NCBI GenBank assembly: GCA_002842395.1
Contig: PHCV01000004.1
Coordinates: forward strand, 256,374-320,373
Source: Betaproteobacteria bacterium HGW-Betaproteobacteria-11
Lineage (GTDB): Bacteria > Pseudomonadota > Gammaproteobacteria > Burkholderiales > Rhodocyclaceae
Direction: 5' to 3'
DNA length: 64,000 nt
A model generated the notes under the pieces. It did no database searches. It was not told the origin of the DNA and worked only from the letters and a program-made list of their open reading frames with translations. Positions 13,572-63,952 of this stretch are shown here, piece after piece; within the stretch, counting starts at the first letter, position 1, and every line of letters begins with the position of its first letter. The translations under genes and the position numbers were made by a program.

Positions 13572-13742
13572 CAGGTATCTCCGATATGGGTTGAACCGCC
13601 GCCCGGCCGTGCTGCTTCTGACGAAGCCACCCTATCGGCGCCGAGCGTGTGGATTTCCGTCCGGGACCATCCCGGCGGAACGCGTATTGTAGTCGCCCCG
13701 GAGTAGTCACGCAAGCCGGCACGCCGCCGCTGGCGTCGATAG

Positions 13743-13768
13743 AAAAGTCGGCGCTGGCGGGAACGTGG
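13743..13768 (-). repeat. Dispersed 25-bp repeat, copy 2 (rpsB-map gap)
   Basis: AAAAGTCGGCGCT exact, followed by GGCGGGAACG, a slightly altered left arm. Intergenic. Confidence 0.85.
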
Positions 13769-13837
13769 AATCCCCTACGGCCCGGTCCGACTTTCGGCGC
13801 AGGCTCACGTGAGCACAGCGAACGTTATGCCGAAGCC

Positions 13838-13863
13838 AAAAGTCGGCGCTGGCAACACGGCGA
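13838..13863 (-). repeat. Dispersed 25-bp repeat, copy 3 (rpsB-map gap)
   Basis: AAAAGTCGGCGCT exact, then GGCAACACGGCG, the variant arm also found in the addB copy. It is a direct repeat of copy 2, 95 bp away. Confidence 0.9.
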
Positions 13864-21099: not shown

Positions 21100-23918
21100 T
21101 CAACCGCCCTCCCCGCGGCCCCCGCCCCAGGGGCGAGGATGGCTTGGGTTTCCTCCCATTGCTGGCGCCGTTCGGCCAGCCGCAACAGCGGTTTGACTTC
21201 GCAATACGCCAGATCGCTTTCGCGTTCGCAGACCACTGCCGCGACGCCCTGCAGAATTTCGCGCGCCAGCTCGGTAATGGATCCGGCCCAGTGCCGGCGC
21301 AGCGCGGGCCAGTCGGGAAACACCTCCAGGGCATAGCGCCGGCGCTGTTCGTCGAGCGACTTGACCCCGGGCAGCAGGCCGCTTTCTTCGGCGACACCGG
21401 CAAAGCCCGGCGCATCGCTCACCACCCGCGCCAGGGCAACCGCCGCCAGCGGCCGGTCGGGATAAACGCATGACGCATAGATCGGCAACTGCGGCTCGAC
21501 CAGGCGCGCCTCGCTCCAGCTTTCGGCACGCGCAGTGCGGCCGCTTTTGTAATCGAGGATGACCAGGCGGCCGTCGGCCAGCGCATCGACCCGATCGACG
21601 ACCAGCCGCACCGGCAGGCCCTCGATGCTGATTTCATGGCGCTCCTCGCAGGCCAGCACCCGAAACGGCGGACGCGCGGCTTCGAGCGCCAACCAGCGCG
21701 CCAGCAGCGCCTCCAGCCGCACCTTTTCCAGTCCGGCCAGGCGGGACGGCAGCGGTTCGACGGCGCGGCGACCGAACTCGGCCAGCGCCTGGTCTACCAC
21801 GCGGGCGATCTCGGCCGGCAAGGCGCCGCTTTCCATGAACCGCAGCAGGTCGGCCTGCGCCCGGCCGCGCCAGAAGGCCTCCAGCGCCAGATGCAGCAGC
21901 GCGCCGCGGGCCCGCGCATCGAGCAAAAAAGTCGGCGCTGGCAACACGGCGGCCCCCAGGCGATAGCGATAGAAGGCCCAGGCCGGGCAGATCGCCTGCG
22001 CCGCCAGCAGCGCCGTGCCGCCGCGAACCCGCTCGTCCGCGCTCACGGCTGGCGCCCGCGCATCGTCGAGCAGCTCGATGGCCGGTGCGGTTGACTCCGC
22101 CGGCAAAGCGGCCTTCCCTTCGGACAAGAGCCCGCCCACGGCCAATGCATCCGCCAGCAACGGACTGGGCCGCAACATCCGCTCGCCGGCCTGGCGCGAC
22201 CAGGAAAACACCACTTCGGCGGCACTCGCCCGCCACACCGCCTGCGCCTCCCGCGCGGCAGCGGCGAGCGTCGTGGCCGAAGCCGCCGGAATGCCGCGCG
22301 CGCGCTGCACGGCCGCCGGCAACAGCGGGTTGGGTCGTGGCAGCGGGGGCCAGACGGACTCGTTCAGGCCCAGCAACCACACGCCATCGAGCGGCCCGGC
22401 CGGCACGTCGCCGAGGCGGCAGATCTCGATCGCTGGCTGGCTTGTCCGCGTGCCGGGCAATGGGCGTATCCGGCGGGCGCGGCATTGCCGACGCAGTTCG
22501 CGCCAGGCCATGCCGGCTTCGATGCGCCCGGCGACATCGTCGAGCAGGATGGTCGCCGTCAGCAGTTCACTCAAGGCATCGCAGGCAAAGCGCTCGACCA
22601 CCAGCAGCGGCCGCTCGCCCGGCCAGCCGAGGTTTTCGAGCCAGGCGGCAAAACGCGCGGCCCAGTGCGATGGCGCAGCCCGGCCGGCACTCTGCCGCGC
22701 GGCGTCCTGCAAGGCGGCGAGCGCAACGGCCAGCCTGCGCGTTTGGCTGTCGGTGTCATTCGCCTTTTCGGCCTTTTCGTCTTCCTGCCGCAACCAGGCG
22801 AGTGATCTGCGCACGATCCGCTCGAGCGTGGTTTGCGCCGGCAGGCACTCGCGCAGGAAGACATCGAGCCGGGCACGCAAGTCGGCGGCGGACAGGTCAC
22901 CGGCCCAGCCGGGCGCGCAGAGCAAGGCGCCGAATTCGGCCAGCGCCACCTGCCGCGGGCCGATGGCCAGGCGCAACAGGCGCAAGGCGGTGGCCACCGG
23001 CTCGATCTCCGCCAGCGGCTGGCCGTCGCTGAAGACGAAATCGCGCGGCAGCGGCGCCCATCCGGCGCCCACGGCCTGCGGCCGCAGAGCAGCCTCCAGC
23101 GCCGCTTCGAGCGTGGCTTGGGTGGCCGGCAGATCGGCCAGCGCGATGCGCAGCCGCACGTCGGGTTTGCGCGCCCGCCAGTCGCGCGCCCAGGCGGCGG
23201 CGGCACGGCATTCGGCGGCCCGGTCGGCGGCCGGCAAATGACGCGGGGCAACCGGCGCAGAGGTGGCGAAATCGAGTTCGAACAGCGCGACGCCGCGCTG
23301 CATCAGTGCCCTCAGAACCTGCTCCAGCAGCGGATCGTGGGTCATGAACCCGGCGATCAGCAGGCGTTGCGGCATTTTTCCCGCACCGCGTTCGAGACAG
23401 GCGAGCCGCCACAGCAGCGCCTCGGCCTGCGTCACCCAGCGGGCGTTGCGGCAGCGTTCGGCCACCAGCTCCTGCCAGCGGCGGAATGCCCGGTATTCCT
23501 CGCTTTCCAGATCGGCCGGAACCTCGATGCGCCACAACCGGAAAAGCTGGTCGGCCTCGATTGCCGCCGCCACCAGTGCCTCCGTGTCGAACAGGTCTGC
23601 CAGCGGCTCGCTGTCCATCTCCTCGCGCAACGCGGTTTCCCACAGCGGGCGCTCCTGCGCCGGGGTGAGAAAGCGTCCCGGCATCGCCGCCGGCGGAATC
23701 TCGCCAGAGAGCAGCGCGGCCGAAATGGTGTGTTCGAGCCACTGCGCCACCGTCGCCCCCTGCAAGGGACGCCAGAGCCGGCGCCCGGCGCGCGCCTGGG
23801 CTTCTCCATGCGCCCGGCGCAGGTCGGTGGCCAAATGCGCGGTGGCACAGAGCACGACATCCTCGGCGCCTCCCGGCAGATCGGCCAGAGCAAGCCGCGG
23901 CAAGGCAGGCTCCATCAT
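21096..23918 (-). CDS. AddB-like PD-(D/E)XK nuclease / probable DNA repair protein
   Basis: Partner of the AddA-like helicase, related to AddB but of the proteobacterial 'probable DNA repair protein' type. With the start at 23918 (tandem ATGATG) it has about 940 residues; another in-frame ATG is at 23954. The nuclease core is at the C terminus: LRLVVDRVDALADGRLVILDYKSGR-like Asp and Lys, then PQLPIYASC. One Cys precedes the nuclease (AQAICPAWAFYRYRLGA) but I do not see the three downstream Cys of the AddB iron-sulfur staple. The start overlaps the stop of a 33-codon ORF. A near-perfect repeat copy encodes LPAPTFLL before LDARARG. Confidence 0.85.
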   Translation of the reverse strand: MMEPALPRLALADLPGGAEDVVLCATAHLATDLRRAHGEAQARAGRRLWRPLQGATVAQWLEHTISAALLSGEIPPAAMPGRFLTPAQERPLWETALREEMDSEPLADLFDTEALVAAAIEADQLFRLWRIEVPADLESEEYRAFRRWQELVAERCRNARWVTQAEALLWRLACLERGAGKMPQRLLIAGFMTHDPLLEQVLRALMQRGVALFELDFATSAPVAPRHLPAADRAAECRAAAAWARDWRARKPDVRLRIALADLPATQATLEAALEAALRPQAVGAGWAPLPRDFVFSDGQPLAEIEPVATALRLLRLAIGPRQVALAEFGALLCAPGWAGDLSAADLRARLDVFLRECLPAQTTLERIVRRSLAWLRQEDEKAEKANDTDSQTRRLAVALAALQDAARQSAGRAAPSHWAARFAAWLENLGWPGERPLLVVERFACDALSELLTATILLDDVAGRIEAGMAWRELRRQCRARRIRPLPGTRTSQPAIEICRLGDVPAGPLDGVWLLGLNESVWPPLPRPNPLLPAAVQRARGIPAASATTLAAAAREAQAVWRASAAEVVFSWSRQAGERMLRPSPLLADALAVGGLLSEGKAALPAESTAPAIELLDDARAPAVSADERVRGGTALLAAQAICPAWAFYRYRLGAAVLPAPTFLLDARARGALLHLALEAFWRGRAQADLLRFMESGALPAEIARVVDQALAEFGRRAVEPLPSRLAGLEKVRLEALLARWLALEAARPPFRVLACEERHEISIEGLPVRLVVDRVDALADGRLVILDYKSGRTARAESWSEARLVEPQLPIYASCVYPDRPLAAVALARVVSDAPGFAGVAEESGLLPGVKSLDEQRRRYALEVFPDWPALRRHWAGSITELAREILQGVAAVVCERESDLAYCEVKPLLRLAERRQQWEETQAILAPGAGAAGRAVE
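21925..21952 (-). repeat. Dispersed 25-bp repeat, copy 5 (inside addB-like gene)
   Basis: AAAAAAGTCGGCGCT exact, then GGCAACACGGCGG. Same arm variant as copy 3. Encodes LPAPTF in a variable linker. Confidence 0.9.
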
Positions 23919-24016
23919 CCGGCCAGCGGCAGCAGCAGCATGCCAATCGCGCATAGGGTGGTAGTGGTCAGAAACACGATGAAATCGGCATGTGTGGAAA
24001 CTGATGAATCGGGCAT
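23915..24016 (-). CDS. Small hydrophobic ORF (33 aa) coupled to addB-like gene
   Basis: A 33-codon frame beginning MPDSSVSTHADF and continuing with a hydrophobic stretch IVFLTTTTLCAIGMLLLPLAG that could span the membrane once. GGAG lies 8 nt before the ATG. Its TGA is embedded in the ATGATG start of the addB-like gene, so translation of the two would be coupled. I do not recognise the peptide. It could be a small membrane protein, a leader peptide setting AddB-like expression, or chance; conservation in relatives would decide. Confidence 0.5.
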   Translation of the reverse strand: MPDSSVSTHADFIVFLTTTTLCAIGMLLLPLAG

Positions 24017-24079
24017 GGCAATGGCTCCGCAAGATGAGAGTCCATTGTGCCGGGGGCGAAGCTCATGGCGTGAGCCTGC

Positions 24080-25438
24080 TCAGTCCGGGTCGGATTTTTC
24101 GGAAATTCTGGCGACAACGGCCGGCAGCAGCTCGGCGGCCTGCAAGGTGCGGGTCTGCGACTCGATCGGCGTCAGCGCGCGGATATCCTTGTCCTCGCCG
24201 GTGACCTTGAGTTCGCGAAACTTGCGCGCCGTGACCAGCACCCGCGATTCGAGCGAGGCCACCGATTTGTTGTAAGCCGATACGGCCTCGTTCAGGTTCC
24301 TGCCGACCCCTGCCCAGTGGTCGCCCAGCACGGCCAGCCGCTCGTAGAGCTCGCGTCCCAGCACGCTGATGCGTTCGGCATTCTCGGTGAGCGCCTGCTG
24401 CGTCCAGCCATAGGCGACGGCGCGCAACAGGGCGATCAGCGTGGTCGGCGTGGCAAGGATGACGCGGGTATCGACCCCGGCCTCGATCAGGGACGGATCG
24501 GCCTCCAGCGCGGCGGAGTAGAACATCTCGCCGGGCAGGAAGAGAACGACGAAATCCGGCGTCGGCTGGAACTGTTCCCAGTACGCCTTGCGGCCAAGCT
24601 TTTGCAGATGGTCACGCACCTGCCGCGCATGCTCCTGCAGTTTGTGCTTTTTCTCGCGCTCGTCGTTGGTTTCCAGCGCTTCGAGATAGGCGGCGAGCGG
24701 CGCCTTGGCATCGACCACGATGTTCTTGCCGCCCGGCAGCTTGATCACCAGATCGGGACGCAAGCGGCCTTCCTCGGTGTGGGTGCTTTCCTGCTCGAAG
24801 AAGTCGCAATGATCGAGCATGCCGGCCATCTCGACCACCCGTTTGAGTTGCAGCTCGCCCCAGCGGCCGCGCGTCTGCGGGGCGCGCAGGGCCTTCACCA
24901 GATTGCCGGTTTCGCTACGCAGCGCCAGTTGCGCTTCCGCCATCTGCCGCACCTGCTCGGACAACGTGGCGTAGGCATCGATGCGTGATTTTTCGATGCC
25001 GTGAATCTGCTGCTCGAATTTCTCCAGCGTCTGCCTGACCGGCAGCACCAGTTCGCCGATCGCCTGGCTGCGTTTTTCCAGTTCGGCCCGCGCCGCCGCC
25101 TGCTGTCCCTCCAGGGTGACGCGCGCCAGTTCGAGGAAGGACTGGTTGTTCTTCGCCAGCGCATCGGCCGAGAGCGCGCGGAAAGCGTCGGCGAAACTGG
25201 TGCGCGCGGCTTCGAGCATCGCCTGACGCTCGGCGAACAGGCTGCGCTCGGCCTCCAGCGCCCCTTCCAGCTCGGCACGCCGTATCGCCAGCGCCGACTT
25301 TTCCTCGCGCAGCAACACAAGCTCCCGTTCGCATTGCGCGAGCGCGGCGCGCAGCTCGGCCAGGCGCGACCTGAGCACCAATGACATCCCGCCCGCACCG
25401 AGCAGCAGGCCAAGCAGAAGTGCGATGGTCATTTCCAT
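24080..25438 (-). CDS. rmuC: DNA recombination protein RmuC
   Basis: Family linked to suppression of inversions at short inverted repeats and thought to act with nucleases at DNA ends. 452 residues. An N-terminal membrane helix (TIALLLGLLLGAGGMSLVL) precedes a long coiled coil (about 25-190). The conserved RmuC core follows, with RGRWGELQLKRVVEMAGML, LRPDLVIKLPGGKNIVVDAKAPL, FLPGEMFYSAALEADPSLIE and ATPTTLIALLRAVAYGW. It ends 63 bp before the small ORF and may share a transcript with the AddAB-like pair. A repeat copy encodes EKSALAIRR in the coiled coil. Confidence 0.94.
   Translation of the reverse strand: MEMTIALLLGLLLGAGGMSLVLRSRLAELRAALAQCERELVLLREEKSALAIRRAELEGALEAERSLFAERQAMLEAARTSFADAFRALSADALAKNNQSFLELARVTLEGQQAAARAELEKRSQAIGELVLPVRQTLEKFEQQIHGIEKSRIDAYATLSEQVRQMAEAQLALRSETGNLVKALRAPQTRGRWGELQLKRVVEMAGMLDHCDFFEQESTHTEEGRLRPDLVIKLPGGKNIVVDAKAPLAAYLEALETNDEREKKHKLQEHARQVRDHLQKLGRKAYWEQFQPTPDFVVLFLPGEMFYSAALEADPSLIEAGVDTRVILATPTTLIALLRAVAYGWTQQALTENAERISVLGRELYERLAVLGDHWAGVGRNLNEAVSAYNKSVASLESRVLVTARKFRELKVTGEDKDIRALTPIESQTRTLQAAELLPAVVARISEKSDPD
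25278..25302 (+). repeat. Dispersed 25-bp repeat, copy 6 (inside rmuC)
   Basis: CGCCGTATCGCC then AGCGCCGACTTTT; one arm mismatch, core exact. Encodes KSALAIRR in the coiled coil. Confidence 0.85.
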
Positions 25439-32834: not shown

Positions 32835-32927
32835 GGCATCTCTCCTTTGATGAGGACATGCAGATTATATATTAGTTATTTATTATTTTGCAAGACTCCA
32901 GTCACGACAGCGTGCAACAGCCTTCTT

Positions 32928-32953
32928 CGCCGTCCCGCCAACGCCGACTTTTT
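32928..32953 (+). repeat. Dispersed 25-bp repeat, copy 7 (before murI)
   Basis: CGCCGTCCCGCC then AACGCCGACTTTTT; one core mismatch. Sits 18 bp before the preferred murI ATG. Confidence 0.8.
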
Positions 32954-33796: not shown

Positions 33797-36013
33797 TCAG
33801 CGTCGCCTGACTTGGCTCACCCCCGACACTTCAGCCAGTTGCGCGGTGATTTTCTGCAGGCTTTCCGCGTCGGGAACATCCACCGTCAGACCCATTTTTG
33901 CCTGCGCGTTTCGACTGCGCATTTTTACGCCGGAGACGTTCACCCGCTGCCGGGACAGGACATCCGAAACATCCTTGAGCAAGCCCTGCCGATCGCTCGC
34001 CTCGATCAACAGATCGACCGCATACACGCCCTCGCTCTTGCCCCAGGTCGCCTCGATCACCCGTTCCGGATTTTTGCGCGCCATGTGCCGGAAATTCACG
34101 CAGCCGATGCGATGCACCGAAATTCCCTTACCGCGGGTGACGAAGCCGATGATCGCATCGGGCGGCATGGGTTTGCAGCAACGGCCGATCTGGGTCAGCA
34201 GCTTGTCGACACCGACGATCAGGATGCCCGAGCGGCCGTTCGCCTGATCGACCCGGCTGGCATGGATAGGGATCGTCTCGTCCTGTGGCGGCGCCTCCGC
34301 CGGGCCACGCACGGCGCCTTCGATGGCGCGCGCGCCGATCTGGCCTCGTGCCGCCGCCAGGAACAGTCCGTCAGCCCCGTCCAGTCCGAGCGCCACCGCC
34401 AGATCGGACAGCTTCATCTGGGTCGCCCCCAGCCGCTGCAATTCACGCATGACGATCGCACGGCCGGCGGCCAGTTGTTCGGCTTTTTCCCGCTCGACGA
34501 ACCACTGGCGGACCTTCTGCCGCGCCCGCGGGGTCGCCAGATAGCCTTCGCCGTGCAACCAGTCGCGCGAGGGGCCACCACTCTTGGTGGTAAGGATTTC
34601 CACACGCTGGCCGTTTTGCAGTGGCGTATCGAGCGGCACCATGTGGCCGTCGACCTTGGCTCCCCGGCAGCGATGGCCCAGATCGGTATGCAGCCGGTAG
34701 GCAAAATCGAGCGGCGTCGCCCCGCGTGCCAGATCGAGCACCTTGCCCTGCGGCGTCAGCACGTAGATCGTATCGTCGAGCGCGGCACGCCTGAACTGTT
34801 CGACCCATTCGGCCGAATCGGTGATTTCATCGCGCCAGGACAACAGTTGCCGCAACCATGAAATCTTGTCTTCATAGGCGCCGCTGGCCTTGGCGCCGCT
34901 ACCGGCCTCCTTGTAACGCCAGTGCGCCGCGACGCCCAGCTCGGCGTGCCGGTGCATCTCGTGGGTGCGAATCTGCACCTCCAGCGCGCGTCCGTCGTCG
35001 CCGATCACGGCAGTGTGCAGCGAACGGTAATCGTTGCCCTTGGGGTGCGAGATATAGTCGTCGAACTCGCCGTGGATCGGCGGCCACAGTTGATACACCA
35101 GCCCCAGCGCCGTGTAGCAATCCTTCACCTCGTCGACGATGATGCGCAGCGCGCGCACGTCATGCACCTGCTCGAACGCGAGTTTCTTGCCGCGCATCTT
35201 GTTCCAGATGCTGTAAATGTGTTTGGGCCGTCCCACCACTTCGGCACGGATTCCGGCGACCGCCAGCTCATTCCGCAGGCGCGCCACCGCCACCGTGATG
35301 AAGGCCTCGCGCTCCAGCCGCTTTTCGTCCAGCATCTGCGCGATGCGCTTGTAGGTCTCCGGCTCGAGGTAGCGAAAGGCCAGATCTTCCATCTCCCATT
35401 TCAACGGCCAGAGGCCCAGCCGATTGGCCAGCGGCGCATAGATCGACAGGCTTTCACGGGCCACCGCCAGACGCGCCTCGCCCGGTTGCGCCACCAGAAA
35501 ACGCAGTGTCTGCACCCGGCTCGCCAGACGCAGCAGAACCACCCGCAGATCATCGGCCATGGCGATCAGCATCTTGCGCAGGACTTCGATTTGCTCCTGC
35601 ACCTGTGCGCTGTTGCCATCGGCGGCGGCCCGGGTCAGCGGCCGCAACGAAGCCAGCCGGTGCAGGTTGGCAACCAGACCCGCCACCGTCTCGCCAAAGC
35701 CGACTTTTAGCCGCGCCGGTGCATCCGCGACCAGATCGGTGATGGAAAACAGCAACGCCGCGCAGCGTACCTCGCCATCGAGCTGCAGACCGGCGGCGAT
35801 CGAGGCCATGCCCAGCGCATGCTGCAGGGTCGGCTCGCCCGAGGACAACAACTTGCGCTCATACGTCGCGCAAGCCAGGTCGAGCGCGGCAGCGACCCGC
35901 GCCGCGGCCACGACATCGAGTCCAACCGTGAGCTGCGGCAGCGGATCGGGAGAACCTTGCAGGAGATCGAGGGCATGAACCACGGAAACCATGGGGTGAT
36001 TATCCCATGCCAC
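33797..36013 (-). CDS. relA: GTP pyrophosphokinase RelA
   Basis: Ribosome-associated (p)ppGpp synthetase of the stringent response. 738 residues. The N-terminal HD-type domain has lost the hydrolase residues (LQHALGMASIAAGL in place of HD-bearing sequence), so hydrolysis is not expected. The synthetase domain shows GRPKHIYSIWNKMRGKK and the RelA-type acidic motif EFDDYI with GNDYRSLHTAVIG. TGS (IYVLTPQGKVLDLARGATPLDFAYRLH), a zinc-finger region and a C-terminal ACT domain follow. Start 36013 has GGAG 4 nt upstream. Divergent from the MtfA-like gene. Confidence 0.95.
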   Translation of the reverse strand: MAWDNHPMVSVVHALDLLQGSPDPLPQLTVGLDVVAAARVAAALDLACATYERKLLSSGEPTLQHALGMASIAAGLQLDGEVRCAALLFSITDLVADAPARLKVGFGETVAGLVANLHRLASLRPLTRAAADGNSAQVQEQIEVLRKMLIAMADDLRVVLLRLASRVQTLRFLVAQPGEARLAVARESLSIYAPLANRLGLWPLKWEMEDLAFRYLEPETYKRIAQMLDEKRLEREAFITVAVARLRNELAVAGIRAEVVGRPKHIYSIWNKMRGKKLAFEQVHDVRALRIIVDEVKDCYTALGLVYQLWPPIHGEFDDYISHPKGNDYRSLHTAVIGDDGRALEVQIRTHEMHRHAELGVAAHWRYKEAGSGAKASGAYEDKISWLRQLLSWRDEITDSAEWVEQFRRAALDDTIYVLTPQGKVLDLARGATPLDFAYRLHTDLGHRCRGAKVDGHMVPLDTPLQNGQRVEILTTKSGGPSRDWLHGEGYLATPRARQKVRQWFVEREKAEQLAAGRAIVMRELQRLGATQMKLSDLAVALGLDGADGLFLAAARGQIGARAIEGAVRGPAEAPPQDETIPIHASRVDQANGRSGILIVGVDKLLTQIGRCCKPMPPDAIIGFVTRGKGISVHRIGCVNFRHMARKNPERVIEATWGKSEGVYAVDLLIEASDRQGLLKDVSDVLSRQRVNVSGVKMRSRNAQAKMGLTVDVPDAESLQKITAQLAEVSGVSQVRRR
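35684..35708 (+). repeat. Dispersed 25-bp repeat, copy 8 (inside relA, degenerate)
   Basis: CACCGTCTCGCC then AAAGCCGACTTTT; about three mismatches. Encodes KVGFGETV, which also suits RelA, so this may be a chance resemblance. Confidence 0.4.
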
Positions 36014-40478: not shown

Positions 40479-40534
40479 GATCGGTGCCCGGGCACGAGAG
40501 AAGCGGGGCTCGGAAGATACCACAGCCCGCCCTT

Positions 40535-40560
40535 CGCCGTCTCATCAGCGCCGACCTTTT
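40535..40560 (+). repeat. Dispersed 25-bp repeat, copy 9 (abutting EAL gene stop)
   Basis: CGCCGTCTCATC then AGCGCCGACCTTTT. It abuts the TGA stop of the GGDEF-EAL gene (TGAAAAGG). Confidence 0.75.
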
Positions 40561-44795: not shown

Positions 44796-45938
44796 ATGCG
44801 GTTTGCCCCGTTCCGTCCTCACCTCTGGTTCATCGTCCTGGTTGCGTGGCTCATGCCGACCTCACCGGTTTTGGCGGAGGACGCGTTGCCACTGGAAAAA
44901 ATCCGTCTGCCGCCCGGTTTTTCCATCGCGCTATGGACCCGGGTCGACAATCCCCGCCAGATGGCGCTCGGCGCCCGCGATGCGACCGGCGGCACGGTCT
45001 ATGTTGGCTCCATGCGCGCCGGCCGCGTCCATGCGGTGCGCTTCGATAGCCGCCATCAGGCGAGCGGCGTCAGCACGGTGGCCAGCGGCCTGACCCTGCC
45101 CTCGGGGGTGGCCTGGCGCGACGGGGCGCTGTATGTCGCGGCCGTCGATCGCATCCTGCGCTATGCCGACATCGACCGGCGTCTGGCCAACCCACCGGCG
45201 CCGGTGGTGGTCAGGAACACCTTGCCACGACAGAACGAGCACGGCTGGAAATTCATCGCCTTCGGCCCCGATGGCAAACTTTATGTGCCGGTCGGCGCAC
45301 CCTGCAACAGCTGCGCGCCGGGCGAGCCTTATGCCAGCATTCTGCGCATGGACGCCGATGGCTCGAACGCCGAAATTTATGCCCGCGGCGTGCGCAACTC
45401 GATCGGCTTCGACTGGGACCCGGCCGATGGCACGCTGTGGTTCACCGACAACGGCCGCGACTGGCTGGGCCCGGATGCGCCGCCCGACGAGCTCAACCAC
45501 GCGCCACGCCCCGGCCTCGATTTCGGCTTTCCGTTCTGCCACGGCGGCGAGATCGCCGATCCGGACTTCGGCAAGGCGCGCCGCTGCGACGAATTCATCC
45601 CGCCGGCGCAAAAACTCGGCGCTCACGTTGCGGCGCTCGGCATGCGCTTTTACGTCGGCAACCAGTTTCCCGAAGCCTATCGCCACAGCATTTTCATCGC
45701 CGAACACGGCTCGTGGAACCGCTGGCAGAAAGTCGGCTATCGCATCACGCGGGTGCCCATCCGTAACGGCAAAGCCGCGGGCTACGAGGTATTCGCCGAG
45801 GGCTGGCTGGAAGACAGCCTGCTCGGCGGCAGCGCCTGGGGCCGGCCGAGCGATGTGCTGGCGCTGCCCGACGGTTCGCTGCTGGTCGCCGACGATCAGG
45901 CCAACGCGATTTACCGCATCAGCTGGCGCGGCCGGTAA
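44796..45938 (+). CDS. PQQ-type sugar (sorbosone-like) dehydrogenase, periplasmic
   Basis: Six-bladed beta-propeller protein related to soluble PQQ-dependent sugar/L-sorbosone dehydrogenases; true substrate unknown. 380 residues. Signal peptide WFIVLVAWLMPTSPVLA, cut near residue 28. Family stretches: LPPGFSIALWTRVDNPRQMA, LPSGVAWRDGALYVA, GWKFIAFGPDGKLYVPVGAPC, YARGVRNSIGFDWDPADG, LWFTDNGRDWLG, and HGSWNRWQKVGYRI. AAAGGAA lies before the ATG. Divergent from the PhnD-GGDEF gene. No PQQ synthesis genes are in the window. Confidence 0.88.
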   Translation: MRFAPFRPHLWFIVLVAWLMPTSPVLAEDALPLEKIRLPPGFSIALWTRVDNPRQMALGARDATGGTVYVGSMRAGRVHAVRFDSRHQASGVSTVASGLTLPSGVAWRDGALYVAAVDRILRYADIDRRLANPPAPVVVRNTLPRQNEHGWKFIAFGPDGKLYVPVGAPCNSCAPGEPYASILRMDADGSNAEIYARGVRNSIGFDWDPADGTLWFTDNGRDWLGPDAPPDELNHAPRPGLDFGFPFCHGGEIADPDFGKARRCDEFIPPAQKLGAHVAALGMRFYVGNQFPEAYRHSIFIAEHGSWNRWQKVGYRITRVPIRNGKAAGYEVFAEGWLEDSLLGGSAWGRPSDVLALPDGSLLVADDQANAIYRISWRGR

Positions 45939-45997
45939 TCCTGTCGTCACGACTCCGCTTTAGAATCCGCGCCAGAAGCAGGACCCTACCGCCCGTT

Positions 45998-46021
45998 CGC
46001 CGTCTCGCCAGCGCCGACTTT
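45998..46021 (+). repeat. Dispersed 25-bp repeat, copy 10 (before pta)
   Basis: CGCCGTCTCGCC then AGCGCCGACTTT exact, intergenic, 22 bp before the pta ATG. Confidence 0.9.
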
Positions 46022-46043
46022 CCCATCGCCACCAAGGATATTC

Positions 46044-47447
46044 ATGACCCCATCCCAGGACTACATCGAGAACCGCACCTTCGACGAAATTGTCATCGGT
46101 GAATCGGCGACACTGACGCGCACGCTGAAACCGGAAGACATCCAGATGTTCGCCATCATCTCCGGCGACATCAATCCGGCGCTGGTCGATCCGGAATACG
46201 CCCGCTCCTCGATGTTCCACGAGGTCATCGCCCATGGCATGTGGGGGGGCGCCCTGATCTCCACCGTGCTCGGCACCGAGTTTCCCGGCCCCGGCACCAT
46301 CTACGTCGGCCAGACGCTGAACTTCGAGCGTCCGCTGCGCGTCGGCGACACGCTGACGCTGACACTCACCTGCCAGAAGAAGTTCGCCCACGATCACCAT
46401 GTCATTCTCGACTGCCGCGGCGTCAATCAGGAAGGCCAGCCGGTGCTCAACGGCACCGCCGAGGTGCTGGCGCCGACGCAAAAGGTGCGCCGGCCGAAAC
46501 AAGACCTGCCCGAGCTGCATCTCACGCCCAGCAAACATTCGCGCTTCGAGCATCTGCTCAAGATCACTGCCGGCCTCGTGCCGATCGCCATGGGCGTGGT
46601 GCACCCGTGCGATGCCGAGTCGCTCAAGGGGGCGCTGATGGCGCGCGATCGCGGCCTGATCCTGCCGACGCTGATCGGCCCGGAAGCCAAAATCCGCAGC
46701 CTGGCCGAGACCAACGTGCTCGATCTGGCCGGCTGCACGCTGATCGATGCCGAACACAGCCATGCCGCTGCCGAAACGGCCGTCGCCCTGGCCCGCACAG
46801 GCAAACTCGAGGCGCTGATGAAGGGCTCGCTGCACACCGACGAGTTGATGGCCGCGGTGGTGGACAAGACCAACGGCCTGCGCACCGCGCGGCGCATCAG
46901 CCACGTCTTTCTGATGAGCGTGCCAAGCTACCCGCGCCTGCTCATGATTACCGATGCCGCGGTCAATGTCTCGCCGAACCTGCTGGGCAAGGCCGACATC
47001 CTGCGGAACGCGATCGATCTGGCCCATCTCTTGAAGATCGCCGAGCCGAAGGTGGCGATCCTCGCCGCGGTGGAAACCGTCAATCCCGACATGCAGGCCA
47101 CGCTCGATGCCGCCGCCCTGTGCAAGATGGCCGATCGCGGCCAGATCACCGGGGGCGTCGTCGATGGCCCGCTGGCCTTCGACAATGCCATCTCGCTGGT
47201 CGCGGCGCGGACCAAGGGGATCAAGTCGGCGGTGGCCGGACAGGCCGACATCCTGCTGGTGCCGGACATCGAATCGGGCAACATGCTGGCCAAGCAACTC
47301 GAATATCTGGCCGATGCGCTGGCCTGCGGCATCGTCCTCGGCGCCCGGGTGCCGATCGTCCTCACCAGCCGCGCCGACTCGGCCGAAACCCGTACCGCCT
47401 CGACCGCCGTGGCGATGGTCATGGCTCACGCGAAACGACAGCAATGA
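46044..47447 (+). CDS. MaoC-like hydratase fused to phosphate acetyltransferase
   Basis: Two-domain enzyme of 467 residues. The N-terminal part (about 1-145) is a MaoC/R-specific enoyl-CoA hydratase hot-dog domain: DINPALVDPEYARSSMFHEV, HGMWGGALISTVLG and PLRVGDTLTLTLT. The C-terminal part (about 165-467) is a phosphate acyltransferase of the Pta/Ptb group: GVVHPCDAESLKGALMA, TDAAVNVSPNLLGKADIL, GPLAFDNAISLVAARTKGI and AGQADILLVPDIESGNML. Its stop overlaps the ackA start, so acyl-CoA to acyl phosphate to carboxylate plus ATP is the likely path. Acetyl- versus butyryl-specificity cannot be read from sequence. Confidence 0.93.
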   Translation: MTPSQDYIENRTFDEIVIGESATLTRTLKPEDIQMFAIISGDINPALVDPEYARSSMFHEVIAHGMWGGALISTVLGTEFPGPGTIYVGQTLNFERPLRVGDTLTLTLTCQKKFAHDHHVILDCRGVNQEGQPVLNGTAEVLAPTQKVRRPKQDLPELHLTPSKHSRFEHLLKITAGLVPIAMGVVHPCDAESLKGALMARDRGLILPTLIGPEAKIRSLAETNVLDLAGCTLIDAEHSHAAAETAVALARTGKLEALMKGSLHTDELMAAVVDKTNGLRTARRISHVFLMSVPSYPRLLMITDAAVNVSPNLLGKADILRNAIDLAHLLKIAEPKVAILAAVETVNPDMQATLDAAALCKMADRGQITGGVVDGPLAFDNAISLVAARTKGIKSAVAGQADILLVPDIESGNMLAKQLEYLADALACGIVLGARVPIVLTSRADSAETRTASTAVAMVMAHAKRQQ

Positions 47448-48676
47448 CCCACGGCGCCCTGCTCACCCTCAATGCCGGCTCGTCCTCGATCAAGTTCGCG
47501 CTGTTCGCCGATGCCGCAGCGCCCGCGGCGCAAGCCGAACTGTGCGGACAAATCGAGGGCCTGGACGAAGCTCCGGGAGGCACGGCCACAGCCGCCCGCC
47601 TGAGCGTGCACGATGCCGCCGGCCGGCCGCTGGCCGATCAGGAACTCCCGCACACGCCTTCGCATGCCAGCGCACTCCAACGGCTGCTCGACTGGCTCGA
47701 CGCGCACCTGGAAGGCCGCTCGATTCGCGCCGTCGGTCATCGCGTGGTGCATGGCGGCACGCAATTCGCCGCACCCGCCGTGGTGTCAGCGCCGACTTTT
47801 TCCGCCTTGCGTGAACTCATCCCGCTCGCGCCGTTGCACCAGCCGCACAACCTGGCCGGCATCGAGGCCATGCTGGCCTTTCTGCCCGGCGTGCCCCAGG
47901 TAGCCTGCTTCGATACCGCCTTTCACCGCACCCAGCCGGAACTCGCGCAACGCTTCGCCCTGCCGCGCGCGCTGCTTGATGCCGGCGTGCGGCGTTATGG
48001 CTTTCACGGCCTGTCCTACGAATACATTGCCGAAGTGCTGCCCCAACACCTTCCCGCCGAAGTTGCCCGCGGCCGGGTGCTCGTTGCCCATCTGGGCAAC
48101 GGCGCCTCGATGTGCGCGCTGCAGGACCGGCGCAGCATCGCCTCGACCATGGGCTTCACGGCACTCGATGGCCTGGTGATGGGCACCCGTTGCGGCACCA
48201 TCGATCCGGGTGTGCTGCTGTATCTGCTGGAGCAGCGCGGCATGTCGGCAACCGCCATCAGTCACCTGCTCTATCACCAGTCCGGACTGCTCGGCGTCTC
48301 CGGCATTTCCGCCGACATGCACACCCTGCTCGCCAGTAGCGAACCGCTGGCGGCGGAAGCCGTCGAGCTGTTCTGCTACCGCGCCGCGCGCGAAGCCGGT
48401 TCGCTGATCGCCGCGCTCGGCGGCCTCGACGCCCTGATCTTCACCGGCGGCATCGGCGAGCATGCCGCGCCGGTACGCGAAAAAATCTGCGCCCGGCTCG
48501 GCTGGCTTGGGCTGGAACTGGACAGCGCGGCCCATGCGGCGACAGCCGTGCCCACACCCGCCCGGGTGATTTCGACCACCGCCAGCCGGATCGCCGTCGC
48601 CGTGATTCCGACCAACGAAGAATGGATGATCGCCCGCCACACCGCGCACCTGATCGAGCACACGACCATCGGCTGA
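47444..48676 (+). CDS. ackA: Acetate kinase AckA
   Basis: Interconverts acetyl phosphate plus ADP and acetate plus ATP. The start MTHGALLTLNAGSSSIKFALF overlaps the pta stop (ATGA) and gives 410 residues. Conserved parts: NAGSSSIKF, GHRVVHGG, FDTAFHRTQPE, RRYGFHGLSYEYIAEVL, LVAHLGNGASMCAL, GTRCGTIDPGVLLYLL and FTGGIGEHAAPVREKIC. A dispersed-repeat copy encodes VVSAPTFSAL between VHGG and APLH; the spacing there (23 residues) equals that of E. coli AckA, so the repeat replaced rather than lengthened the sequence. Confidence 0.95.
   Translation: MTHGALLTLNAGSSSIKFALFADAAAPAAQAELCGQIEGLDEAPGGTATAARLSVHDAAGRPLADQELPHTPSHASALQRLLDWLDAHLEGRSIRAVGHRVVHGGTQFAAPAVVSAPTFSALRELIPLAPLHQPHNLAGIEAMLAFLPGVPQVACFDTAFHRTQPELAQRFALPRALLDAGVRRYGFHGLSYEYIAEVLPQHLPAEVARGRVLVAHLGNGASMCALQDRRSIASTMGFTALDGLVMGTRCGTIDPGVLLYLLEQRGMSATAISHLLYHQSGLLGVSGISADMHTLLASSEPLAAEAVELFCYRAAREAGSLIAALGGLDALIFTGGIGEHAAPVREKICARLGWLGLELDSAAHAATAVPTPARVISTTASRIAVAVIPTNEEWMIARHTAHLIEHTTIG
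47776..47801 (+). repeat. Dispersed 25-bp repeat, copy 11 (inside ackA)
   Basis: CGCCGTGGTGTC then AGCGCCGACTTTTT; core exact. Encodes VVSAPTF with no length change relative to E. coli AckA. Confidence 0.85.
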
Positions 48677-51851: not shown

Positions 51852-51904
51852 GCCGTCCCACCCCGTTCGCCAAAAAATCGGCGCTGGTGGGACGGCGGTT
51901 CTTT
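51852..51904 (+). terminator. Terminator-like hairpin after nrdJ, containing a repeat copy
   Basis: GCCGTCCCACC (51852-51862) pairs perfectly with GGTGGGACGGC (51886-51896), 11 bp, loop of 23, followed by GGTTCTTTTG. The downstream arm is the left arm of a dispersed-repeat copy. Confidence 0.65.
51872..51897 (-). repeat. Dispersed 25-bp repeat, copy 12 (nrdJ terminator)
   Basis: AAAAAATCGGCGCT then GGTGGGACGGCG; one core mismatch. It supplies half of the hairpin stem after nrdJ. Confidence 0.8.
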
Positions 51905-53096: not shown

Positions 53097-53141
53097 ACGC
53101 TCGCCGTCTCGCCATCCGCTACGGCGAGGAGAGCGTTTTTT
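53097..53141 (+). terminator. Terminator of the hydroxy acid dehydrogenase gene
   Basis: ACGCTC pairs with GAGCGT directly before TTTTTT; alternatively CTCGCCGT (53100-53107) pairs with ACGGCGAG (53121-53128). It begins 3 bp after the stop. Its loop includes CTCGCCGTCTCGCCA, which equals the left half of the dispersed repeat. Confidence 0.75.
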
Positions 53142-53169
53142 GCTCGACCGCCTTGTAGCGCAGTTGCTT

Positions 53170-53187
53170 CACCAGCGCCGACTTTTC
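53170..53187 (+). repeat. Dispersed 25-bp repeat, copy 13 (abutting GIY-YIG stop)
   Basis: Core AGCGCCGACTTTT exact, left arm lost. On the minus strand it overlaps the stop of the GIY-YIG gene (TGAAAAG), as copy 9 does at the EAL gene. Confidence 0.75.
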
Positions 53188-53924: not shown

Positions 53925-55832
53925 TCAGGCCGCCAGCGACTCCAGGGCTTCCCAGCGCAGCAGCGCGGCATCGATGTCGCCATCGATTTCGGCCAGGCGC
54001 GCCTGTGCCTGGCGTTGGGTTTCCAGTGGCTGGCGGTAGAACTCGGGAGCGGCCAGCCGCTGTTGCAGCTGGGTCTGCTCGGCTTCCAGCGTGGCCAGAC
54101 GTACGGGCAACTGTTCCAGTTCACGCTGCTCCTTGAAACCGAGCTTTCTGCGGCCGGGCGGGTTCGCTGCGCTCCCCGCTGCCGCGGGAATTTTCTTCCC
54201 GGCTTTCGCCGCTTCGCGCAGCGCGGCCGCGGGCATGGCCGCCGTCCGCTGCTGCAACCAGTCGCTATAGCCGCCGACATACTCCTTCCACTTGCCATCG
54301 CCTTCGCTGGCGATGGTCTGGGTCACCACGTTGTCGAGAAAGGCACGGTCGTGACTGACCAGGAATACCGTTCCGGCATAATCCTGCAAGAGCGCCTCGA
54401 GCAGTTCCAGGGTTTCGATGTCAAGGTCGTTGGTCGGCTCGTCGAGCACCAGGACATTGGCCGGCCGGGCGAACAGGCGCGCCAGCAAGAGGCGGTTCTT
54501 CTCGCCGCCGGAAAGCGATTTCACCTTGGATCGGGCGCGCGCCGGAGCGAACAGAAAATCCTCCAGATAGCCGATGACATGTTTCTTGATGCCCCCGATC
54601 TCGACGTAATCGGAGCCCGGACTGATGACATCGGCAAGCGTCGCCTCGGCATCGAGCTGGCTGCGAAACTGGTCGAAGTAGGCTACCTCGACGCGACTGC
54701 CGAGACGCACCGTACCGCTGTCCGCCGCGATCTGGCCAAGAATCAGGCGCAACAGCGTGGTCTTGCCCGCGCCATTGGGGCCGATCAGGCCAATCTTGTC
54801 GCCGCGCTGGAGACGACAGGAAAAATCCCTCACCACGCAACGCTCGCCAAAACATTTGCCGACCTGTTCCAGTTCGGCCACCAGCTTGCCCGAAGCCTCG
54901 CCGCGCGCCAGTTGAAAATCGACCCGCCCCAACTGTTCCCGTCGCGCGGCACGTTCGCTACGCAGATGTTCCAGCCGATTGATGCGGCCGACGCTGCGGG
55001 TGCGCCGCGCCTCGACGCCCTTGCGAATCCAGATTTCTTCCTGCGCCAGCAGCTTGTCGGCGCGCGCATTGGCCAGCGCCTCCTCGTGCAACAGCATCTC
55101 CTTGCGTTCCTGATAAGCCGCGAAACGGCCGGGAAAGCTGGTCAGCTTGCCGCGATCGAGTTCGATGATGCGCGTCGCCACGCCATCGAGGAAGGCGCGG
55201 TCATGGGTAATCAGCATGACCGCCCCGGGATAGCCTTTGAGCAGTTCCTCCAGCCACAGAATGCCATCGACATCGAGATGATTGGTCGGCTCGTCGAGCA
55301 GCAGCAATTCGGGCTCCATCACCAGCGCCCGGGCCAGGGCGACGCGCTTCTTGCCGCCGCCGGAGAGCGCGGCGACCGGTGCATCGCCATCGAGTCCGAG
55401 TCGCGATACCGCCTGCTCGATCCGCGAATTCAGTCGCCAGCCATCGGCTGCTTCGAGCGCCGCCTGCAAGGTCTGCAACTGCTCCAGCGCCGCCGTGTCG
55501 CCAGCGCCGACTTTTTGCGTCGCCGCGTGATACTCGGACAAGACCCGGGCCACCGTCCCGAGGCCGGCCGCTACCGCGGCAAAGACGTTGTCATCAGCGG
55601 AAAACTCCGGCTCCTGCGGCACATAAGCGATGCGCAAACCCGGTTGCCGCCAGAGCAGTCCGTCGTCCAGCGACGACAGCCCGGCCAGCGCCTGCAGCAA
55701 GCTGGATTTGCCACTACCGTTGCGGCCGATCAGGCCGACACATTCACCGGCATCGATCTGCAATGCCGCGTGATCGAGCAGGGCGACGTGGCCGAAGGCG
55801 AGACAGGCACGATCGAGGGTAAGCAGGGGCAC
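53925..55832 (-). CDS. uup: ABC-F ATPase of the Uup type
   Basis: Soluble double ABC protein; Uup relatives affect transposon excision and ribosome function. 635 residues. First ABC: GLIGRNGSGKSSLLQALAG (Walker A), LSGGGKKRVALARAL and LLLLDEPTNHLDVDG. Second: GLIGPNGAGKTTLLRLILG, LSGGEKNRLLLARLF and VLVLDEPTNDLDIET. A linker with basic RINRLEHLRSERAARRE lies between, and the C terminus (about 550-635) is the coiled-coil domain typical of Uup. A repeat copy encodes QKVGAGDTAALE in a variable loop of the first ABC domain. It is divergent from tRNA-Arg. Confidence 0.92.
   Translation of the reverse strand: MPLLTLDRACLAFGHVALLDHAALQIDAGECVGLIGRNGSGKSSLLQALAGLSSLDDGLLWRQPGLRIAYVPQEPEFSADDNVFAAVAAGLGTVARVLSEYHAATQKVGAGDTAALEQLQTLQAALEAADGWRLNSRIEQAVSRLGLDGDAPVAALSGGGKKRVALARALVMEPELLLLDEPTNHLDVDGILWLEELLKGYPGAVMLITHDRAFLDGVATRIIELDRGKLTSFPGRFAAYQERKEMLLHEEALANARADKLLAQEEIWIRKGVEARRTRSVGRINRLEHLRSERAARREQLGRVDFQLARGEASGKLVAELEQVGKCFGERCVVRDFSCRLQRGDKIGLIGPNGAGKTTLLRLILGQIAADSGTVRLGSRVEVAYFDQFRSQLDAEATLADVISPGSDYVEIGGIKKHVIGYLEDFLFAPARARSKVKSLSGGEKNRLLLARLFARPANVLVLDEPTNDLDIETLELLEALLQDYAGTVFLVSHDRAFLDNVVTQTIASEGDGKWKEYVGGYSDWLQQRTAAMPAAALREAAKAGKKIPAAAGSAANPPGRRKLGFKEQRELEQLPVRLATLEAEQTQLQQRLAAPEFYRQPLETQRQAQARLAEIDGDIDAALLRWEALESLAA
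55491..55516 (+). repeat. Dispersed 25-bp repeat, copy 14 (inside uup)
   Basis: CGCCGTGTCGCC then AGCGCCGACTTTTT; core exact, one arm mismatch. Encodes KVGAGDTA. Confidence 0.9.
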
Positions 55833-56281: not shown

Positions 56282-56749
56282 CTACTTGACGCGAGTCAGC
56301 GCCGGACGGTCACCAGGAGGTTTGTGGCTTGGGCGTTCAGAAGTCGGCTCTGGTGCGACGGCGTTTTCCGTACTCGCCTGCTCGGTTGCTCCAGTGTGCG
56401 AAGCCGTTGCAGCTTCGACAACCTCGAACGCCATGCCTTCGCCATTCTCACGCGCGTAGATCGCTGCAACCCGCGCCAGGGGGATCAGCAACGGGAATAT
56501 CTTGCCGCCGAAACGGCCCTGAAAGGTGACCTCCTCGTTACCGAGCTGCAACTGGTTGGTAGCTTCGAGGCCCAGGTTGAGCACGATTTCACCATTCTTG
56601 ACGAACTCGCGCGGCACGCGTGTCGAAGCATCGACCGCCACCAAGAGATACGGCGTGAGCCCCTGATCGACGCACCACTCGTGAATGGCGCGTAGCAGAT
56701 AGGGCTTGAGCGACTGGCCGTGGGCCGGCATCGGCGGCGCAACCTGCAT
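56282..56749 (-). CDS. sspB: ClpXP specificity-enhancing factor SspB
   Basis: Adaptor that delivers ssrA-tagged proteins to ClpXP. The ATG at 56749 shares one base with the sspA stop; 155 residues. The folded domain runs about 8-115: SLKPYLLRAIHEWCVDQGLTPYLLV, REFVKNGEIVLNLG and FGGKIFPLLIPLARVAAIYARENGEGM. The tail is disordered, rich in Thr, Pro and Glu, and ends in a short basic stretch RPALTRVK that would be the ClpX-binding peptide. A degenerate repeat copy lies in the tail (AVAPEPTS). Confidence 0.93.
   Translation of the reverse strand: MQVAPPMPAHGQSLKPYLLRAIHEWCVDQGLTPYLLVAVDASTRVPREFVKNGEIVLNLGLEATNQLQLGNEEVTFQGRFGGKIFPLLIPLARVAAIYARENGEGMAFEVVEAATASHTGATEQASTENAVAPEPTSERPSHKPPGDRPALTRVK
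56339..56363 (-). repeat. Dispersed 25-bp repeat, copy 15 (inside sspB, degenerate)
   Basis: AGAAGTCGGCTCT then GGTGCGACGGCG; about three mismatches. Lies in the region coding the disordered tail, where drift is tolerated. Confidence 0.5.
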
Positions 56750-62350: not shown

Positions 62351-63952
62351 TTACACAGGTTTAATGGTCGATTCATCGATGCTGGCATTGAACAGATCGA
62401 CCGCTTCGCGCACGAAGGGGTCTTGTTCAACGGCGGCAATCGCACGTTCCTGACGCTCGTTCTGCATATTTTTGTTGCGTTCGGCCGGTGTTTCAGCCGA
62501 CGGTTCGGCAATCTCTATGCTCAGCCGCAGCGGCCGGCCGAAATGGGTTTCCAATGCGGCCTGCAACTTGTCCTCCTGCACCTTGCCGAGCAAGTGCCGG
62601 TGTACCGGAGCCAGGCTCAAACGTATCGCGGTTTTACCCAGTTCCACCAGTTCGCAATGCTGGGCCAGTGGCCGGGCCATGCCGATCAGGGGTAGCTTTT
62701 CAACGCAGGCGTGCCAATCACCATCCACAGCTTTCTGCGGAACAAAAGTCGGCGCTGGCGGGACGGCGGCGACAGGCGCCGGGGGGGATGCCACGGCAGC
62801 CGCCGGCGTGGCCGAGCGACCGGCCACGGCTAGTTTTGCCGAGGTTGCAGCAAGCGAAGCAGCTCCCGCCCGCTCGGGGCGAAAGGCACAAAACCGCAGC
62901 AGCGCCATCACGAAACCCGAGTATTCATCGGGCGCAAGGGCAAGCTCGTCACGCCCATGCACCGCGATCTGATACGCGAGTTGCAGGAATTCGGCATCCA
63001 GCGCCGCAGCATAGGGTTGCAGGCGGGTGCGCTCGGCCGCATCGGGCAAGGCCTCCGGCACCATCTGCGCCAGGGCGATGCGATGAAACAGGGTCGCCAG
63101 CTCGAGCAGGCCGCCATCGAACGAAAGGCTGCTGGCTTCCATTTGTCGGGCAACTTCGGTCATGGCGAGTACATCCGCCGCGACCAGGGCATCGAGCAAA
63201 GCAAACAGATGCTCGTCGCCGACCGTGCCGAGCATGGCGCGCACATCCGCCTCCTCGATCTTGCCGGCGCCGTGGGCAATCGCCTGATCGAGCAGCGAGA
63301 GCGCATCGCGCATGCTGCCCGCCGCTCCCTTGGCCAGGTGACGCAGGGCCGCCGGCTCGAAGGCGATGCCTTCGGCCTCGAGCACATGGGACAGATGTTC
63401 GATGATCTGGGCGGGAGGCATCTGTTTCAGGTTGAACTGCAAACAGCGAGAAAGCACGGTGACCGGAATCTTTTGCGGATCGGTGGTGGCCAAAATGAAT
63501 TTGACATGTTCCGGCGGCTCTTCCAGCGTTTTCAGCATGGCATTGAAGGCGTGGCCGGAAAGCTGATGGACTTCGTCGATGACGTAGACCTTGAAACGCC
63601 CGCGGGTTGGCGCATAGGTGGCGCGATCGAGCAATTGCGTCATGTCGTCGACGCCGCGATTCGAGGCGGCATCGAGCTCGATGTAATCGACGAAGCGGCC
63701 GCTATCGATTTCCATGCAGGACGAGCAGACTCCGCATGGCGTGGCCGTCACCCCGGTTTCGCAATTCAGCGCCTTGGCCATGATCCGCGCCAGCGTGGTC
63801 TTGCCGACGCCACGCGTGCCGGTGAACAGATAGGCATGATGCAGCCGCCCCTGCTCCAGGGCATGGGTCAGCGCACGCACCACATGCTCCTGCCCCACCA
63901 GGGTGGCAAAGGATTTCGGGCGCCATTTTCGGGCAAGAACCTGGTAGCTCAT
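62351..63952 (-). CDS. dnaX: DNA polymerase III subunit tau (DnaX)
   Basis: Clamp-loader ATPase that also organises the replisome. 533 residues. AAA+ domain: SYQVLARKWRPKSFATLVGQ, Walker A FTGTRGVGKTTLARI, zinc-binding Cys CGVCSSC, Walker B YVIDEVHQLSGHAFNAML and ATTDPQKIPVTVLSRC. The C-terminal third includes an Ala/Pro-rich linker (near 365-405) containing a repeat-encoded PPAPTF. No A-AAA-AAG slippery heptamer was found, so a separate gamma form by that route is not supported. The 48 bp before its start show no gene. Confidence 0.95.
   Translation of the reverse strand: MSYQVLARKWRPKSFATLVGQEHVVRALTHALEQGRLHHAYLFTGTRGVGKTTLARIMAKALNCETGVTATPCGVCSSCMEIDSGRFVDYIELDAASNRGVDDMTQLLDRATYAPTRGRFKVYVIDEVHQLSGHAFNAMLKTLEEPPEHVKFILATTDPQKIPVTVLSRCLQFNLKQMPPAQIIEHLSHVLEAEGIAFEPAALRHLAKGAAGSMRDALSLLDQAIAHGAGKIEEADVRAMLGTVGDEHLFALLDALVAADVLAMTEVARQMEASSLSFDGGLLELATLFHRIALAQMVPEALPDAAERTRLQPYAAALDAEFLQLAYQIAVHGRDELALAPDEYSGFVMALLRFCAFRPERAGAASLAATSAKLAVAGRSATPAAAVASPPAPVAAVPPAPTFVPQKAVDGDWHACVEKLPLIGMARPLAQHCELVELGKTAIRLSLAPVHRHLLGKVQEDKLQAALETHFGRPLRLSIEIAEPSAETPAERNKNMQNERQERAIAAVEQDPFVREAVDLFNASIDESTIKPV
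62744..62768 (-). repeat. Dispersed 25-bp repeat, copy 16 (inside dnaX)
   Basis: AAAAGTCGGCGCT then GGCGGGACGGCG; core exact and the arm equals that of copy 7. Encodes VPPAPTF in the linker of tau. Confidence 0.9.

Follow-up and report, generated by a model that had tools for sequence, protein, structure and literature searches.

How does a protein-coding gene come to hold a copy of a 26-bp repeat: was the copy inserted, or did it form in place by base substitution? This question is raised by ackA, the acetate kinase gene recognised from its translation and homologues at 47444-48676 (+ strand) of the window, by which we mean the whole stretch of 64,000 nucleotides analysed here. A motif copy at 47775-47801 (+ strand; CCGCCGTGGTGTCAGCGCCGACTTTTT) lies in frame within this gene, scores 37.7 out of a maximum of 46.7 with the position matrix, and encodes residues 112-120 (AVVSAPTF plus part of S). 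The original prediction attributed the copy to substitution, on the grounds that the spacing between VHGG and APLH equals that of E. coli AckA. The spacing is indeed the same, with 23 residues in the window (TQFAAPAVVSAPTFSALRELIPL) and 23 in E. coli K-12 (EKYTSSVVIDESVIQGIKDAASF, from the translated gene). The repeat-encoded VVSAPTFSAL had further been said to replace VVIDESVIQG-type residues; length is unchanged as claimed, but the pairing is off by one residue, the ungapped alignment placing VVIDESVIQG opposite AVVSAPTFSA, one residue to the left of VVSAPTFSAL.

Comparison with further homologues supports substitution over insertion for the ackA copy. Across residues 96-140 of AckA, no gap is found on either side in 110 of 110 rows (the window's own gene plus 109 homologues, of which at least two come from one contig). 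The columns beneath the motif are more variable than the protein mean (mean entropy of 2.20 versus 1.53 bits; 79th percentile of 391 windows), in agreement with the proposal that the motif occupies tolerant positions. Among the homologues, motif-like sequence at this site occurs only in G024 (twice, on L034 and L113), in that genome's own dialect CAGCGTCGACTTTT, and every AckA row not from G024 differs from the 14-base core by 4 mismatches or more. The proposed "gradual" gain is therefore not shown at ackA itself, although graded forms exist at addA (see below). A ready-made motif imported via homologous recombination would look identical at ackA; the data exclude insertion and not import, which sets a limit on the word "gradual". 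We also note that the window's ackA (47444-48676, compared with L112-L116, L135 and L137-L140) shares 64-66% identity with the ackA genes of several other genera and 51-52% with the ackA found in its own genus, which suggests that the gene may have been replaced by transfer.

The motif is abundant. Its consensus, derived from 46 copies as yCGCCGTNTYRYCAGCGCCGACTTTT, consists of two fixed blocks and a semi-fixed joining stretch, and is bipartite, asymmetric and not palindromic over its 26 bp. The window's own genome (G000, 2.34 Mb, 97% complete) holds 409 core copies at 1 mismatch or fewer, the right halves of the long forms described below included, versus 2 for the reversed control. Within the window, a 16-mer is matched 19 times at up to 3 mismatches, against 1.31 expected and a maximum of 5 in 100 shuffles. 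Both excesses argue that the ackA motif is not a product of chance. The position matrix, trained on 43 copies with the window's own among them, finds 18 sites at scores of 10 or above and 0 when reversed; two of the 18 are marginal, namely a site scoring 12.0 and the right half of a long form. Unsupervised search of the 64-kb window recovers the G000 motif, and an Rfam scan of the window returned tRNAs only. A coding-like context surrounds at least 17 of 45 copies.

Between predicted frames of the window, the matrix places copies at 13742-13768 (- strand; lower score of 29.6), at 13837-13863 (95 bp from the former and likewise on the - strand), at 40534-40560 (+ strand) and at 51872-51898 (- strand). 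Another, at 45997-46023 (+ strand), lies upstream of an enoyl-CoA hydratase/phosphate acetyltransferase gene. A degenerate copy in coding-like context is found at 35683-35709 (+ strand; 28.8), and weak motif-like sites at 45610-45636 (- strand; 20.1) and 56338-56364 (- strand; 21.5). The copy at 32927-32953 (+ strand) sits just upstream of a racemase gene (Pfam Asp_Glu_race) that we take to be murI, by its start MIGVFDSG. At this one place in the racemase leader, the short motif is present in seven genomes (G000, G003, G004, G005, G007, G016 and G027, the last with a score of 25.2), while the surrounding sequence differs between genomes. Together with sites in addB, rmuC and uup, this leader makes up the motif places conserved across genera.

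The distribution of the motif is narrow. Core counts in 61 genomes, the window's own included, separate 12 rich genomes (178-630 copies) from 49 with 0-19 copies, and the rich genomes are all nine sampled of the genus plus G009, G016 and G027. A survey of 399 genomes from the order, scored for the left-arm pattern CGTNTCRCCAGC, gave a clear excess over control in a single family, f1 (observed/control: 160/2 in G000, 108/6 in G185, 61/5 in G027 and 47/8 in G283); elsewhere, totals reach at most 33, with a control of 19 in that genome. The named loci that carry the motif come from two Sulfuritalea MAGs and one Sulfurisoma MAG, and in 1.33 Mb from 75 named loci belonging to other bacteria the matrix finds 0 sites at 8 or above, versus 9 when reversed. 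Among viral contigs (L420-L499), the exact full motif occurs in 87 stretches, which may be either phages of such hosts or host flanks.

Related genera carry dialects of the motif: the G000 type, those of G022 and G024, and a looser form in G031. Two hairpin elements of G022 end in CCAGCACCMACTGGC instead of CCAGCGCCGACTTTT. The dialect CAGCACCMACTGGC was predicted from these elements and then found in G022 (513 copies versus 2 for the control; 2-30 copies in 24 other genomes tested), with a logo, ACGGCGTGTCRCCAGCACCAACTGGCga, that shares the layout and register of the G000 motif. For G024, unsupervised search of 185 kb yields CAGCGTCGACTTTT, and AAAAGTCGACGC is observed 10 times versus 0.07 expected. 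The same search of 400 kb each of G031 and G028 returned nothing comparable to the motif, the top words looked at being tandem arrays, palindromes and common coding words. Exact-word search had made G031 appear motif-free, a classification that the matrix rules out: in 400 kb (L318-L337), it finds 22 sites at 8 or above, many of them with GCTGACTTT at the right end, versus 0 reversed, and 26 versus 2 at 4 or above. A matrix refined on G031's own sites, and circular in this respect, gives 59 sites versus 1 reversed in G031, and 5 in G028. Since exact words missed the G031 dialect, searches for exact words or exact cores can miss loose dialects elsewhere, and other genera may hide such forms. 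In 400 kb of G028, no motif was found (3 matrix sites at 4 or above versus 2 reversed), and 400 kb of G035 hold few sites (5 versus 0 reversed at the same threshold). G028 does contain tandem arrays of 7-bp (GGAAGGC) and 12-bp units, unrelated to the motif (L346, about 5937-6040; L341, about 6212-6308).

The original prediction likened the ackA copy to the way in which uptake sequences accumulate in genes. Our analysis points the same way, and we consider it probable that f1 is a third bacterial family with a DNA uptake sequence, namely this repeat. In favor of this reading, short of proof, are the motif's abundance, its confinement to a single family, its dialects, the mixing of strands and the places kept across genera. 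A density of about one core copy per 5.7 kb and a length of 26 bp count against it; uptake sequences of Neisseria and Haemophilus are denser than this. In the proposed mechanism, free DNA with the 26-bp bipartite motif would be preferentially bound and taken up by a pilus-based competence machinery, and the imported DNA would be recombined into the homologous locus. The uptake bias would pull near-matches toward the consensus and keep them. Copies would arise in place at permissive positions, and within genes as base substitutions that leave length unchanged (ackA, addB, rmuC, uup). We infer a receptor that reads the motif, with biased uptake as the driving force. The model also has a side component, which the data show in part: at a minority of sites, the motif is split by a 60-bp hairpin that carries open reading frames.

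ComEC is encoded in G000, and also in E. coli, taken as a control. ComP_DUS-family pilins (PF16732) are found in 29 of 30 family genomes, with one in G000. A ComP-like pilin clade is common in motif-bearing genomes, and G000's own PF16732 match falls outside it. This clade at first seemed tied to the motif, but as a candidate receptor it does not fully track it: G028 has the clade although its 400 kb contain no motif, and five motif-bearing assemblies of the genus (G000, G002, G004, G006 and G008) gave no good match to it. G035 lacks the clade, and its sites are too few for a judgement. The phylogeny that defines the clade lacks properly extracted pilins of G034a and G020. G031 is no counter-example to a tie between pilin and motif, because it carries the loose dialect.

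The incomplete agreement between pilin clade and motif lends some weight to a different function, namely that the motif is bound by a protein outside uptake, chromosome-organising or otherwise, with its copies kept by selection. A bipartite, asymmetric motif of 26 bp resembles a protein site, and its places are conserved across genera. However, the strands alternate without long runs (98 exact copies on five contigs; run tests, P 0.16-0.84), which is not the pattern of polar segregation motifs. In addition, the exact core is not in excess in most genera of the family, and the wholesale change of motif between genera would be odd for a core chromosome function. We therefore regard such a protein site as unlikely.

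A longer relative of the motif bears on both readings of the in-gene copies. The long form of the window, of about 87 bp at 53101-53186 (+ strand), consists of the two motif halves with a hairpin-forming stretch of 60 bp between them (left half, 53101-53112; hairpin, 53113-53172; right half, 53173-53186); no orthologous flank for it was found in relatives. Of 37 family genomes, 13 contain long forms (G000-G008, G009, G016, G022 and, as a single copy, G018), with at least 6-36 matches per rich genome, where one element can give two, and the search of plasmids gave no match. Pairing is preserved in 98.8% of cells across fifteen pairs of the hairpin. Three pairs are changed on both sides, a number reached by 0 of 500 shuffles in a test that related copies weaken.

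At 60 bp, or 78 bp in G022, the insert has a length divisible by three, and it is open in 3 of 6 frames. A long open frame runs through it in 13 of 26 loci, some of them possibly by chance in GC-rich DNA. Ten such frames were compared with Pfam: seven fall into known-gene families (IleRS, UvrD, RsmA, 2-oxoacid dehydrogenase E2, MidA-like methyltransferase, ValRS and heptosyltransferase), one is a restriction methylase (L183) and two have no match. The long form lies in frame in ileS, valS, uvrD, rsmA and aceF-like genes of relatives and of the window's own genome (L178-L207). Its usual peptide, KVGAG(D/E)..TALQGGRAKNALLAVADG.TA, corresponds to the KVGAGDTA of the short motif opened by 20 residues.

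The hairpin long form looks inserted, in contrast to short copies of the ackA type. In the racemase leader, G006 carries the long form exactly where seven other genomes have the short one, and parsimony across these relatives says that the motif would have been there before the hairpin. A second short/long pair is formed by L179 of G001 (long) and L029 of G000 (unsplit motif), and L192 fits the pattern when compared with G028, in a poor alignment. The reverse order, in which the mobile unit would first have been the long form, with the short motif as a scar left after hairpin loss, appears very improbable. It could draw on the two ends that both forms share, and on the MidA-like gene of G022 and L196: in the former, the motif-free homologue lacks the whole stretch and not the hairpin alone, and in the latter it likewise lacks more than the hairpin. 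It could also draw on G018, a genome with no motif excess, where a lone long form with motif ends (L187, 1501-1584) stands as if moved whole; this may be a transferred segment, or a unit moving with its ends. Against such a scar, the racemase leader is short in seven genomes of three genera and long in one, scars would still lengthen AckA, AddB, RmuC and Uup, and G000 holds at least 19 long-form matches versus its 409 core copies (right halves included).

Extending the uptake-sequence reading to the hairpin, we arrive at a third independent uptake-sequence system with genus-level dialects plus a hairpin parasite that lands in the motif, a composite that we hold tentatively and rate slightly short of an even chance. 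The parasite, a hairpin of 60-78 bp with open reading frames, would land in the motif and leave both halves, and would ride into genes such as ileS and valS carried by imported DNA.

The remaining in-gene short copies of the window permit the same comparison as ackA, and MAFFT alignments of orthologues from up to 12 genomes were made for addB, rmuC, uup, addA and dnaX. The copy in the addB-like gene (21096-24032), at 21926-21952 (- strand), encodes AVLPAPTF and stands at one place in 8 of 8 orthologues compared, with no gap. Similarly, all 8 orthologues that cover the site share the position of the copy in rmuC (24080-25438, - strand), at 25277-25303 (+ strand), again with no gap, two of the eight copies being degenerate (21.5 and 24.4). 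In the uup-like ABC-F gene (53925-55832, - strand), the copy at 55490-55516 (+ strand) encodes KVGAGDTA and is shared by 10 of 12 orthologues; those that lack it are of the same length (G013) or 3 residues longer (G027). The addA/uvrD-like gene (17740-21099, - strand) contains a copy at 17976-18002 (+ strand) for which scores in relatives fall through point differences (36.7, 30.6, 28.8, 20.7, 18.7, 13.7, 6.0, down to -16.5); here the aligners disagree, MAFFT leaving 8 of 8 rows gap-free inside the motif and tblastn 3 of 6. The copy in dnaX (62351-63952, - strand), at 62743-62769 (- strand), encodes PPAPTF in an indel-rich linker whose length varies in motif-bearing and motif-lacking proteins alike. 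A last copy, at 3253-3279 (+ strand), lies near the 5' end of lpxD (2297-3322, - strand).

Among 32 scored motif-lacking rows of the MAFFT set, a count that omits too-short rows (three at AddB column 49) and all-gap rows, 14 have some gap in the motif columns and 8 have at least 7 gapped residues. Three of the 14 reflect an N-terminal extension of AddB, three are gaps of 2-3 residues in Uup, and the 8 with large gaps fall at AddB column 288 and in DnaX, where the reference is gapped too; in every one of these 8, the motif-bearing reference is gapped to the same extent or more, and none of them is shorter than it. A wider test by tblastn drew on the window and on 30 loci from the same genome, taking copies that score 25 or above and have an open frame and a homologue; not all of these frames are necessarily genes. 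It gave 14 in-gene sites and 154 alignments to motif-lacking homologues, of which 129 are gap-free inside the motif and 3 have a gap of at least 7 residues, two of these three at 37% and 30% identity. AckA contributes 110 of the 154, and across the other 13 sites 19 of 44 alignments are gap-free, with the 3 large gaps among them.

The alignments of ackA, dnaX, addB, uup and rmuC thus reveal no insertion signature at the motif borders, and clean insertions of 24-30 bp at most in-gene copies are not seen. For ackA, and likewise for the other testable in-gene short copies, the evidence supports substitution over insertion. Consequently, we find it scarcely credible that the short repeat is a mobile element of the REP, MITE or palindromic-element type inserted in genes including ackA. 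Its strong consensus, the inserted appearance of its longer relative, which lies in genes, and the modest gap-free fraction once AckA is set aside would suit such an element, but AckA keeps its length throughout, large gaps are rare, addA shows graded forms, and filled sites are not longer than empty ones in the AckA rows, in MAFFT or in tblastn. Codon or amino-acid bias or chance convergence as the source of the ackA copy, finally, is refuted to near certainty by the counts (409 versus 2 in the genome; 18 versus 0 in the window): the variability of AckA at these columns can accommodate the residues that the motif encodes, but copies lie in several reading frames, in both orientations and between genes, and reversed controls give 0-2 matches.

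As an uptake sequence, the motif would resemble the USS of Pasteurellaceae in its abundance, its dialects (two in the USS) and its in-gene copies by substitution; the USS has further arms beyond its core. Unlike the USS, it is of unrelated sequence, bipartite over 26 bp, less dense and placed in a betaproteobacterial family. The same gap test on the H. influenzae USS found 24% of alignments (115/474) gapped, mostly outside the core, in the available part of that report (PMC1626085). The dialects of Neisseriaceae DUS are described in the accessible text as few-base differences around a fixed inner core (PMC3630211, PMC12616744), and Neisseria DUS as lying in permissive parts of conserved regions, with recombination, and not point mutation alone, argued as their origin (PMC2397512, in part). 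Our motif is like DUS/ComP in its dialects, its permissive places and the ComP_DUS-family pilins of f1, and unlike it in motif, in length and in a candidate pilin clade that does not fully track the motif. DUS and USS span 9-12 nt according to the portion at hand of PMC12616744, the motif here being longer at 26 bp; the same portion, in a 2025 statement, has uptake sequences on record in two other bacterial families and none for f1. Within the parts of the literature that our search reached, no uptake sequence is reported for this group, and the motif string was found in no bacterial paper. If the reading is true, this third family, in which related genera differ in dialect and some show no motif, would offer a natural experiment on the origin, drift and loss of uptake specificity.

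Further interest lies in the combination of an uptake-like motif with dialects and an open-frame hairpin that splits it. To our knowledge, a hairpin settling inside an uptake-like motif has no described counterpart, and our searches on this subject and on palindromic elements found none in the source texts available. Rickettsia palindromic elements (RPE) are short hairpin repeats with open frames, located in frame in conserved protein genes (PMC2229807, as far as its accessible text goes). The long form, and not the short one, is like RPE in being a hairpin repeat in frame in conserved genes (60 and 78 bp, versus 105-146 in RPE), a likeness of description; unlike RPE, it has a hairpin nested within a second repeat, the motif, and ends that follow the local dialect. 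Dispersed hairpins also recall REP/RAYT and IS200/IS605-derived elements, from which the long form differs in that Y1 transposase (PF01797) gave no match in G001, G003 and G005, all hairpin-rich. As a mobiliser this transposase was rejected: it does not follow the hairpin, with matches in 9 of 12 hairpin-rich genomes versus 12 of 22 others. We note, lastly, adjacent partial hairpin matches at two places in the window's own genome (G000:C3:141181-141297 and 146182-146298), as if the hairpin had doubled inside one long form.
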